DNA of 64,000 nucleotides from positions 33,476,354 through 33,540,353 of the forward strand of contig NC_065536.1 in the NCBI RefSeq assembly GCF_932294415.1. Reading direction: 5' to 3'. The position numbers and the translations under genes were made by a program. The notes under the pieces are model-generated. The model ran no database searches. It saw nothing but the letters and a program-made list of their open reading frames with translations, and had not been told where the DNA came from. The stretch comes from Quercus robur (Eukaryota > Streptophyta > Magnoliopsida > Fagales > Fagaceae). Of this stretch, positions 28,679-64,000 are shown piece by piece (within the stretch, counting starts at the first letter, position 1; each line of letters opens with the position of its first letter).

Positions 28679-29540
28679 AAAACATAGGATTTTAAATAGG
28701 GATGTCAATAATTTGAACCTGTCCCCAAGGGTACCCGTTCCTAATAGGATGGGTTTTACCCATACCACAAAGCAAATGGGGCGGGGATGGGAGTAAAATT
28801 TTTTCCCTAAAATCACCCGGTTTATATTTTAAAATTTAAAAATATTCTTATAGGAATTTTTTGGAATTTTTTTTATAAGGCATATATATGTGCTTTAGCT
28901 TCCAAACTATAAATTTATTATGTCTTTTGATTTTAATTTTTAATTTTTAATTGTTGTATTGTTATGTTTGAATTTTTTTATCTTTTTTTTTAATACTTGA
29001 ATTGTTGTATTATTATTTTTTCTGAGAATGTTAAAACTTGTTTTTAGATATTTTACAAGTTTATAATTAAATTTTACAAACTTTTATATAAACAAAATTG
29101 AGTGTGGTAGGGGATAGATACTTGCGTGTATCCACTAGAGCAGGGCCGGTGAAAGAAATTCCGCCTTGAAGTGAGAGTCGGGTGGTAGCAAGGAATAGAA
29201 AACCCACCATGTAACTCAATGACCCAACTCCATGATTGTGTTAACATCCGGTTCGAATTTAATAACTATGATTGAATGCTATTCAATATATATATATATA
29301 TACACACAGAAATGTAATATGTATCTTTCTAGAACAAATGTAAGTTTTCTTTAATAAAAATATACAATTAATATAATGAATCACATTACAATAATTTTTT
29401 AACTTATTTCACAATTGGAATAATTCAAAAATTGCCACAATATAAACAATGAATCACACGCAAAAAATATGACAGACCGGAGGAATAATAGAACAAGAAT
29501 CTAAACTTAATTGATTCAAGGTATTGAAATTGTGCAAGAA

Positions 29541-31061
29541 TTAGTTTATAGCACTGCATATCCTTCTAATTTGCCCAGCTGAACCGGTGAGAGGACCGAT
29601 ATCTCCCATTTTAATCATGGCAGATGCAAAATCAGACTTAAAAGTGGCAGGGCTCCTACTATATTCTGAGACAATACTGTCTGTGCTTCCTCCGCTAAAA
29701 AGGATTTGATCCGATTGAAGGAGACCCTTCTTTTGCAGTAAATTCTTGAAGTAATTGTTGTCAAAAGAATTTGGTGTCACCAAGTCAAGTGGTGCCAAGT
29801 TTGAATCCCCTGGTTGTCCACTAGTACCCGGACAACGACGCTTTCGTGTGCTAGCAAATCCAACATCGATGTCACTCCCATTATTGTATATCCGACCACG
29901 AAATGAAGAACATTGAGCTTGCCCTAGTGTGTGGGAACCTGTATCAGGACAATGGTATATATGTTCATCTTTGAGACATTCATTATATACAACTAAAAGA
30001 TTGAAAGAATATCTTAGGTGTTGTATTTATTCTAAGTTCTAACCTGACAATGCAACCATGTCTCTTGCACTGAGCCCTTTGGTACCAAAACGAGATATTA
30101 GACTATCAAGGCCGTCAGTAAATCTTGGAAGTTCTTGTTCAGCTAGAGAGGAACTTGCAGTGGTGGAATCTCTTCTTCCAAGCTTCACTGTCCAAGATGG
30201 ACCACCAACCTGTTTTCCAAAGAGATTCTTATTAAATTGTGTTTTCATGATTGATTTTTTGTAAAGAGACTATGTTAAAGTGATTGGCAGATTTCAATAA
30301 ACTTGTAAATGAATGTTTTTTAAAGTCTTATAACTTGATGGCATTGATAGATCTTTATTAGTAGAACAAGGGTTCAAATCCCCCGATCCTCTTTTGTTAC
30401 AATTAATTATAAAATAAACAAATAAATGTTTGATTCTTTTTTGGTGATTGGTGATGAGGATTATTTATCAAAAATTTATATATAGTAACCCTAGCATTTA
30501 TATACATATATAGACAGACATACTAATATATATAGTAAGAAGAGTGAGGATTTTTATATATATTACTCACAGCAACGGAAGCATCTCGAGCAGCCACTGC
30601 AAGAATATCTGCGCAAGATACAACTCCAGGGCATATCTTCTCTACCTGAGCTTTTGCACTGTCTATGATCTCATAACCTCTTGCAGAACCCCTATTTTGC
30701 AGTGCATTCCTCTCGCCATCTTCTAGTAAAATTGATGCATCACAGCCCTGCAAAGCCAAGCTAGCCTTTAAATTTCAATGCTTAAATGGCATATTTGGGG
30801 AAAGAAGCTTGAGAAACCGGCAAAGGTCACAGTACGTACCTGAACAAAGCAATCATGAAAATGGAGACGAATTAGAGATGCCGCCATTCTACGTTCTCGT
30901 GAAACAGCTGTTCTAATAGCATTCCGAATAGTACTTAGTCCATTTGGACAGTTTTGGTCATAAAATGTAGAAGATAGTTGCGCTTTGCATGTAGTGCTCA
31001 AAAGGAGCAACATGAACACAACTGTCGCAGTGCTTGCATGGGAAATGAAAGAATTTCTCAT
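29541..31061 (-). CDS. class III peroxidase, copy 1 (lignin-forming anionic type)
   Basis: Secreted haem peroxidase that oxidises phenolics such as monolignols with hydrogen peroxide in the cell wall. Four exons: 30840-31061, 30571-30747, 30044-30209 and 29541-29938 (222, 177, 166 and 398 nt), giving 320 residues with classic class III intron positions. Residues 1-27 form a signal peptide and the mature start is [12 protein letters not shown]. Distal motif RLHFHDCF, calcium-site [21 protein letters not shown], proximal [11 protein letters not shown] and C-terminal SFDNNYF are all present. The loop after GCDASILL is about five residues shorter than in close relatives, and SGAH is SGSH. It differs from copies 2 and 3 at two residues in exon 4 (Gln for Arg in the LLxKKGLL motif; Ser for Gly in STDxIVSEY). 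No lesion was seen. Confidence 0.95.
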
Positions 31062-31113
31062 TGAACTAATTAGATTTGACGAAATAAGAGAGCGAGCTAG
31101 CTGCTACTTATGC

Positions 31114-31121
31114 TATATATA
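31114..31121 (-). promoter_or_regulatory. TATA box of peroxidase copy 1
   Basis: TATATATA lies 53 bases upstream of the start codon, as expected for a short 5' leader. The region further upstream holds CCAAT-type words (gaccaattctcc near 31266) and is shared by all array copies. Confidence 0.65.
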
Positions 31122-31812
31122 AGTTTCAACTTAGAAGAAAGTGCAATGGAGTGAAGATGGAGAATGAAGCTTAAGGCTCACCAATTTATAGAGAAGTATG
31201 GTATGGTACATTAATTATTAGGGTCACTATGCGATAACGCGTGGAAGCATCAGCTTTAAGTATGTGACCAATTCTCCTTTGATTGGCGTAAAGTGTCAAC
31301 GCAATAAACTTAGAAAATTTCCGCATATATCAAAATATGGATAAGTCAAAGATGTATACAATTACAATATCAACTCTGAAAGTTCTACTGGATGCTGAGT
31401 CTTTGGCCGATTGTAATAAATGAGTAAACCCGAAAAATTGTTTATAACTCGAAAATATGGTGCGATTTCTGTACGGATGACGATCTGTATGGGAAGAGTG
31501 GTGTGTTATTTATATTGACGAGTCAGGCACGAAATTTTTACTTATGCGCCGATGCGCTGCCAAATTGTCATTACCCCGTAGCTGCCTCATGGTCAGACAA
31601 GGGTGAAAGAAATTCCCATAAATAAAATGTTATTACCCATTAAATAAAAAGAGAAAAACATTACATAATAAACTTAAATAAACATTGCATAATAGACCAG
31701 ATGCGTAGGAATTTATTGATCAACCAAACTAATGAACATGGCATCTGGTCTGGTTTCTCAAAAAAAAGAAAAGAAAAAAAAGACAGCAAGAATAGTGGAT
31801 TCAAGTCTTGAA

Positions 31813-62569: not shown

Positions 62570-62609
62570 TTCTTAATTACTCGAAACTATGAATAGGGAT
62601 AGATGACCT

Positions 62610-62628
62610 TTCCCACAGGCAACACCAA
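62610..62628 (-). promoter_or_regulatory. gypsy primer binding site remnant, unit 3
   Basis: Same 19-base sequence as in units 1 and 2, adjacent to the LTR end. Confidence 0.6.
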
Positions 62629-62629
62629 T

Positions 62630-63284
62630 TGTAGAGGGCAAAACTTAGGGCCCAATCCAGTTGGAATAAGACTAGGTTTAGGAAATAGGCCCAATACAAC
62701 TAATTTGTAGAGGTGGATGGTCAAGGTCAACCTTTTAAACCTTGGTAGCCTTGGTCTAATAATTTGAGAAAGAGGGTTGGCAAAAATATAATTTAAGCTA
62801 AGAATTACGCCAAGGAAAAGAGAAATTCTTACTTAATATAGCTGTTTGAATTGCATCTCAACCCTCCACTTGGATGGTCGTTGATCTCTCCTTAGATACT
62901 TATCCCATCACTACCTTACTGGTGGCAGTAGAGTAGGTTGCAGGTTTTGGGGGCACTATTCAAGGGTCATTCTACCATTAATGCGGCAAGTTGGGTTGGT
63001 ATGATGCATAAAATGTGGAGGTGATGGGTGTTTTATCTAGAAGCTTCCCCCTTCCCTTGCCTGCACGCCACAACTTCCTTCCTCAGTTTTCAACCTTATA
63101 GCCTCAATGGTTTGTCTCTAGTCTCTCAAGGAGTATCTGCTCCTCGAGCGAACCTCCCTCCTTGGTTTCCATGACTAGACTATCCTGATTGTACAGAGTC
63201 TAATTTGATGACTAGTTAGGCCTAGTTGCATCTCGGGTTGATTCCACTCGATGATCCACTTTCTTTGGGCATCCTCCTCCCACA
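62630..63284 (-). repeat. Tat gypsy LTR, unit 3 (655 bp)
   Basis: Same ends and length as the other two LTRs. It shares several variants with unit 1 against unit 2. Its outer end joins AAAACATAGG of unit 4 directly. Confidence 0.8.
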
Positions 63285-64000
63285 AAAACATAGGATTTTA
63301 TATAGGGATGTCAATAATTTAAACCTGCCCCCATGAGTACCCACCCCTAATAGGACAGGTTTTGCCCACACCGCAAAGCAAATGGAGCGGGGATGGGAGT
63401 TAACATTTTCCCCTGAACTCGCCTTGTTTAAATTTTATAAGGCATATATAAGTGCCTTAGCTTCCAAACTATAAATTTACGATGTCTTTTGATTTTTTTT
63501 TTTTTTAAGGAGTTTATATTTTAAGGTTTTAAATTTAAATTTTTAAAATTTAAATTGTTGTATTGTTATGTTTGAATGTTTGTATGTTTTTTAATACTTG
63601 AATTGTTGTATTATTATTCTTTCTTAGAAGGTTTCATAATGTTAGAACTTGTTTTTAGATATTTTTCAAGTATTAAATTAAATTTTACTAACTTTTATAT
63701 AAACAAAATTGAGTGTGGCAGGGGATGGATACCTGCGTGTACCCACTAGAACCGGGCCGGGGAAAGAAATTCCGCCATTAAGTGAGAGTGGGGGTGGTAG
63801 CAAGGAATAGAAAACCCACCATGTAACTCAATGACACAACTCCATGATTGAGTTAACATCTAGTTCGAATTTAATAACTATGATTGAATGCTATTCAATA
63901 TATATATATATATATATATGTTCAGACCAAAAGTTAATATATATCTTTCTAGAACAAATGTAAGTTTTAAAAAAAAATATATATATATACAATTAATATA
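63285..64000. repeat. tandem array unit 4 (start only)
   Basis: 716 bases colinear with the first part of units 2 and 3 (the peroxidase 3' flank), including the TA microsatellite near 63898-63919. The window ends before the expected peroxidase stop codon, so a fourth peroxidase copy very likely follows at once. Confidence 0.9.

Follow-up and report, generated by a model that had tools for sequence, protein, structure and literature searches.

The Sdic genes of Drosophila form an array of tandem units for which recurrent non-allelic recombination has been inferred and in which part of the unit shows strong gene conversion (PMC7475035). In maize, 20.0% of tandem duplicates contain a long terminal repeat (LTR) element compared with 8.2% of other genes, and unequal crossing-over has been proposed for their origin (PMC6118310). 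Here we describe a locus of the oak Quercus robur that has these features in common with both systems. In a stretch of 64,000 nucleotides (the window, C3:33476354-33540353), class III peroxidase genes alternate head to tail with pieces of a Retand/Tat-like Ty3-gypsy retrotransposon. Compared with Sdic, the oak array differs in lying in a plant, in having one retrotransposon copy fixed in the unit and in recording exchange, in one assembly, by a single switch a little upstream of the gene between two sequence types, which we call α and β. The maize elements are described as lying inside genes, whereas the oak element forms the spacer between genes.

Elements of the Retand lineage carry an antisense Transposase_28-like open reading frame (ORF) as well as tandem repeats between pol and the 3′ LTR, in a region of 2,933-6,566 bp (PMC11963269). 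The oak element has such repeats and a candidate for the antisense ORF, in a region of ~3.9 kb; unlike the Retand elements, it is broken and has lost its 3′ LTR. Among the papers listed in a literature search none described a peroxidase-retrotransposon array; subscription journals lay mostly outside the search, and a published account may exist all the same. The array belongs to a known kind, the tandem gene array that grows by unequal crossing-over and carries a transposon along as passenger, and is unusually readable. New here is the manner of array growth, which is read from the α/β pattern: two diverged end copies and two identical chimeras preserve, in compact form, the natural trace of unequal crossing-over at a plant locus, in that they locate the exchange and show a promoter swap.

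Results

A closed array of four genes and three element pieces

Comparison of the window with itself aligned 31812-50256 with 45557-64000 (98.8% identity over 18,471 bp, offset 13,745) and 28679-31815 with 35796-38982 (93% identity). These matches describe units repeated head to tail every 13.74-13.75 kb, beginning at 28679 and continuing to the right edge of the window and beyond. The assembly comprises 785.7 Mb in 42 contigs, and the window holds no N. Flanks of 40 kb on the left and 100 kb on the right were then added, giving 204 kb in total compared with the window, and unit homology stopped at window coordinate ~69165 (C3:33545518), ~5.2 kb past the window. Within these 204 kb the array is closed. 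Its four intact genes and the three pieces of the element that separate them share the minus strand; the units are in phase, with one more homologous block than spacers:

28679-29540, minus strand: left edge of the array and 3′ flank of peroxidase copy 1 (α); starts AAAACATAGG straight after the native left flank, element absent
29541-31061, minus strand: peroxidase copy 1, α body, four exons, 320 amino acids, intact
31062-31815, minus strand: upstream region of copy 1 (α promoter), truncated by the unit 1 deletion
31816-35795, minus strand: element A, 5′ part only, with its 5′ LTR at about 35141-35795
36673-38227, minus strand: peroxidase copy 2, β body, intact, start codon at 38227
38228-40129, minus strand: region upstream of copy 2, of α type past the switch; it holds an AT-rich self-complementary stretch (39000-39655)
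38235-38488: β-to-α switch interval of copy 2 (copy 3 equivalent 51984-52237), 8-261 bp upstream of the start codon
40130-49546, minus strand: element B, Retand/Tat-like Ty3-gypsy, 9.4 kb, lacking the 3′ LTR and roughly 270 bp beside it, frames interrupted
about 48892-49546, minus strand: 5′ LTR of element B (TGTGGG...CTACA), whose outer end abuts AAAAC, seen also at the native left edge
50422-51976, minus strand: peroxidase copy 3, β body, intact
51977-53867, minus strand: upstream region of copy 3, α beyond the switch
53868-63284, minus strand: element C, with its 5′ LTR at about 62630-63284
63285-64000, minus strand: 3′ flank of peroxidase copy 4; gene and β promoter lie past the window (L013)
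65720-64166 in window coordinates, beyond the window, minus strand: peroxidase copy 4, β body, β promoter, intact

The array is thereby confirmed as real in this assembly, as judged by sequence comparison. A sequence-only reading of the window had already recognized a head-to-tail array in which each unit carries an intact secreted peroxidase and a broken, single-LTR Tat-type element. The self-comparison and the added flanks bear this out, every copy reads through 320 amino acids without a stop (secretion being predicted), and one LTR per unit occurs in the 204 kb. Unit 1 is, as that reading held, a deleted version: it lacks 6.58 kb (the equivalents of 38983-45560), with which the far upstream sequence and the element's 3′ half were lost, and four nucleotides, ACAT, are common at the break (31812-31815). 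Unit 4, likewise, starts inside the window before its edge, and its gene is whole beyond it. In that reading the array reached the right edge of the window; the extended rightward comparison shows that it does not stay open on that side, the homology ending with copy 4. The idea that all copies have the same promoter stands for copies 1-3, which share their upstream region, but not for copy 4, which differs beyond about -261.

Copies 2 and 3 join a β body to an α promoter

An alignment of the four copies yielded 132 biallelic gap-free sites. Copy 1 is set apart by 113 of them and copy 4 by 13; the remaining six are private to copy 3 or fall in an A-rich run, and none of the 132 groups copies 1 and 4 against copies 2 and 3. 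Nearly all sites that distinguish copy 1 (111/113) lie at or before 38235, the exceptions at 38935 and 38940 being located in the A-rich run. Conversely, 12 of the 13 sites that distinguish copy 4 lie at or after 38488, and the exception is a site private to copy 4 at 35854. Between 38235 and 38488 (~250 bp) no variable site was found among the four copies. Copy 1 combines an α body with an α promoter and copy 4 a β body with a β promoter, while copies 2 and 3 are chimeric, each with a β body behind an α promoter and one switch. The order along the chromosome is α, chimera, chimera, β; the events that led to it are reconstructed below. Divergence between the two types amounts to 7% for intron 2, 6-11% for the 3′ flank, 4% for the upstream region and about 1% for the exons, which suggests old tandem paralogs.

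Two further observations concern the upstream regions. The stretch at 39000-39655, in the distal part, resembles a miniature inverted-repeat transposable element and recurs in copies 3 and 4. The upstream region of copy 4 (window coordinates 65903-69165; L013:1903-5165) is a tandem pair with ~9% mutual divergence.

A retrotransposon truncated at its 3′ end

Domains and layout mark the element as Retand/Tat-like Ty3-gypsy; its 5′ LTR is complete and its 3′ LTR is lost. In a domain scan, six of ten proteins were matched, one of them the peroxidase, and four element ORFs had no match. Reverse transcriptase (RVT_1, in two ORFs) and Integrase_H2C2 scored above cut-off and stand in gypsy order, whereas the gag match (22.3 bits) remained under its cut-off of 24.1. 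Between pol (integrase) and the missing 3′ LTR lie two features:

40403-40744, plus strand: antisense ORF, Transposase_28 (PF04195)-like, E 3.6e-5, 24.3 bits, below the curated cut-off of 26.2
42817-43347 in element B and 56566-57096 in element C: 77-bp tandem repeats

Both the place and the strand of the antisense ORF are as in Retand. No LTR beyond one per unit was found in the 204 kb compared, as befits a truncated copy.

Genome searches were performed with parts of the element, and the best 40 candidates of each were scored, so that copy numbers are lower bounds. The outer end of the LTR can be placed from these matches: in 27 of 37 scored places outside the array the match stops at 49543-49547 (query 659-663), in three it extends by at most 7 bp and in seven it stops earlier. 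Four relatives, L026, L027, L028 and L030, have a further 260-280 bp of interior past the equivalent of 40130, followed by a 3′ LTR. The best scored matches outside the array reached only 80% (repeat region), 87% (3′ interior) and 84% (LTR), compared with 98.4-98.9% among the array elements, which indicates that the latter were copied by tandem duplication. A separate insertion beside each gene was considered and rejected, given these low outside identities and the same LTR-adjacent junction in copies 2-4.

The junctions identify what the element joined. The sequence beyond the LTR end begins with AAAACATAGG in copies 2-4, and in copy 1 this AAAACATAGG comes directly after the native left flank, so that the element occupies a site that is still empty at the left edge of the array. 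The abutting AAAAC may be its target duplication, of which the 3′ side has been lost. At 40129/40130 the upstream region meets the interior of the element. This point is a break on both sides, as judged from sequence, with the native continuation of the upstream region located at 69166 and the interior of the relatives running on.

Identical genes between diverged spacers

Copies 2 and 3 show zero differences from about 36486 to 38931 (~2.4 kb). At the rate of elements B and C, 25.9 substitutions would be expected in this tract. With CG and CHG transitions left out the expectation falls to 15.5 (P about 2e-7, post hoc), and the rate of the element's quietest 2.5 kb gives about 10 (P about 6e-5, post hoc). 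The elements themselves have diverged, by 1.1% (A/B and A/C) and 1.6% (B/C) over their shared 4 kb, and B and C by 100 substitutions over 9.4 kb (1.06%). C-T changes in the elements affect 16 of 386 CG sites and 24 of 485 CHG sites compared with 24 of 3,235 CHH sites, a bias that is the mark expected of silenced, methylated plant elements. As the sole cause of the contrast between elements and genes, methylation-driven mutation was rejected as insufficient: even when CG and CHG transitions are set aside, the tract should hold 15.5 substitutions, and it has none. The pattern suggests that exchange was concentrated in the gene, with little in the element. Plant substitution rates are of the order of 6.5e-9 to 1.3e-8 per site per year; at such rates the divergence of B and C would correspond to roughly 0.4-0.8 million years, a figure inflated by methylation-type changes.

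Proposed growth of the array by unequal crossing-over

We propose, with a probability of roughly 0.8, that the array was built when two diverged peroxidase genes, one on each side of the element, crossed over unequally. The starting point would have been the class III peroxidase genes α and β, arranged head to tail. A Retand/Tat-like element would have inserted beside AAAAC in the 3′ flank of β, between α and β. Its 3′ end, the 3′ LTR and neighbouring DNA would then have been lost, joining the interior to the region upstream of α; we infer this loss because a single LTR and the two junctions remain. Subsequently, α and β may have paired out of register and undergone an unequal homologous crossover slightly upstream of the start codon, to give α - element - chimera (β body, α promoter) - element - β. 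One further unequal exchange or unit duplication would suffice for two chimeras, four genes and three elements. Gene conversion, later or concurrent, would have kept the β bodies nearly identical while the silenced elements drifted.

This model accounts for the observed arrangement. Unequal crossing-over between α and β would leave an α end, a β end and chimeras with one switch, and it is further supported by the relation of n genes to n-1 elements in an array whose gene 1 is preceded by native left flank and whose gene 4 is followed by a native right flank. The homology would have been supplied by the peroxidase genes, with the element as passenger. That the retrotransposon was carried along needs no special mechanism, because it lay between unequally recombining genes.

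Several points weigh against this reconstruction. The order and timing of events are drawn from one assembly, and the 5-bp target duplication is unconfirmable, its 3′ side being gone. Alternatively, α and β could be highly diverged alleles, and the first step would then be an exchange between element-bearing and element-free alleles. Polishing of the assembly might, in principle, make gene copies alike, and the P values attached to the identical tract were computed post hoc. B and C diverge unevenly: one 4.5-kb half has 29 substitutions and the other 62 (P = 7e-4), so that a single clock fails. This unevenness also strains a simple picture of exchange in the gene with little in the element, as do the 17 substitutions that separate copies 2 and 3 over the distal upstream stretch (38983-40129) and the unequal numbers of private substitutions in the elements (P = 0.008): 12 in A (31816-35795) compared with 31 each in B (45561-49546) and C (59306-63284).

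As a tentative extension, which we consider possible rather than probable, the silenced element may act as a recombination-cold partition between hot gene promoters, such that only the peroxidase genes take part in exchange and conversion. The idea derives from three observations: the switch lies 8-261 bp before the start codon, an identical gene tract stands between spacers that have diverged, and mutations in the elements show a CG/CHG bias. If it is true, the genes evolve in concert, promoters swap as modules and spacers diverge, and copy number can change without the units being scrambled. The identical gene tract beside diverging elements would provide a system to measure, with reads and methylation maps, whether a methylated spacer keeps recombination within genes.

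The peroxidase and possible selection for dosage

The gene of the array is a class III (secretory) plant peroxidase, with activity and secretion predicted from the sequence. Every copy has four exons and three GT-AG introns. The PF00141 match (E 5.8e-83) covers residues 45-283, and a reading of the translation by eye revealed what we take to be the class III motifs: the distal R/H motif, the proximal H, eight cysteines in the mature chain and a putative N-terminal signal. Switchgrass Pvi9 (5twt) and the peanut cationic peroxidase (1sch) were the best among 25 structures listed, with full-length matches over residues 25-320 and 28-318, respectively; compared with them the array protein is an ordinary member of the family with no unusual feature.

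The coding sequence is identical among copies 2, 3 and 4, while that of copy 1 differs at nine nucleotides and two amino acids (residues 257 and 276, both in exon 4). Selection for peroxidase dosage might keep such an array, as suggested by the four intact frames, the dN of 0.0027 compared with a dS of 0.031 between copies 1 and 2, and the invariance of the roughly 250 bp upstream of the start codon. However, a low dN/dS reflects constraint on the protein and not on copy number, and recent homogenization alone would leave the copies intact; we regard this explanation as doubtful. It is plausible that dosage is raised and that individuals differ in copy number, and as gene-dosage biology the array is so far a candidate.

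Two other peroxidase sequences were noted nearby. A remnant at 23158-24177 (minus strand) consists of the first part of exon 1 fused to 28 bp of exon 4, plus a diverged upstream region. A remoter paralog (L009, window coordinates -31645 to -30278) is located on the opposite strand, with 69-86% identity by exon and the first 24 residues of exon 1 unmatched.

Other routes to the array

First duplication and capture of the element could have taken place in one step, by an illegitimate unequal exchange between an element-free α haplotype and an element-bearing β haplotype. Such an exchange would join the upstream region of α to the element interior, and the same unequal crossing-over would follow. 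It would explain why the left border of the unit coincides with the LTR end, why the flank of copy 1 is free of the element and why the 3′ LTR is missing. Yet in most segments outside exons α and β differ by 4-11%, which is high for alleles, and this route appears unlikely to us.

An assembly artefact, in which haplotypes of a shorter array were joined in tandem, is less probable still. The array is known from a single assembly, and the divergence of the elements (1-1.6%) is comparable to the heterozygosity of outcrossing plants. On the other hand, the sequence is uninterrupted by N, unit 1 has its own deletion, no unique flank is duplicated in the 204 kb compared, and the order α, chimera, chimera, β is the one that recombination would give.

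Retrotransposon-driven gene copying, whether by capture and retrotransposition or by reinsertion of circular DNA with gene and element, would fit their constant adjacency but is very improbable, as the genes retain three introns and lie outside the LTR, all four are in phase at one locus, and circular DNA would not predict distinct α and β end copies.

Other features of the window

To the left of the array lie two further features, the ORFs of which were named by eye:

5182-10431, plus strand: Ty1/copia-like element with gag-, integrase- and reverse-transcriptase-like ORFs; its 434-bp LTRs are 98.4% identical (seven mismatches)
955-1668, minus strand: ORF resembling a polygalacturonase exon

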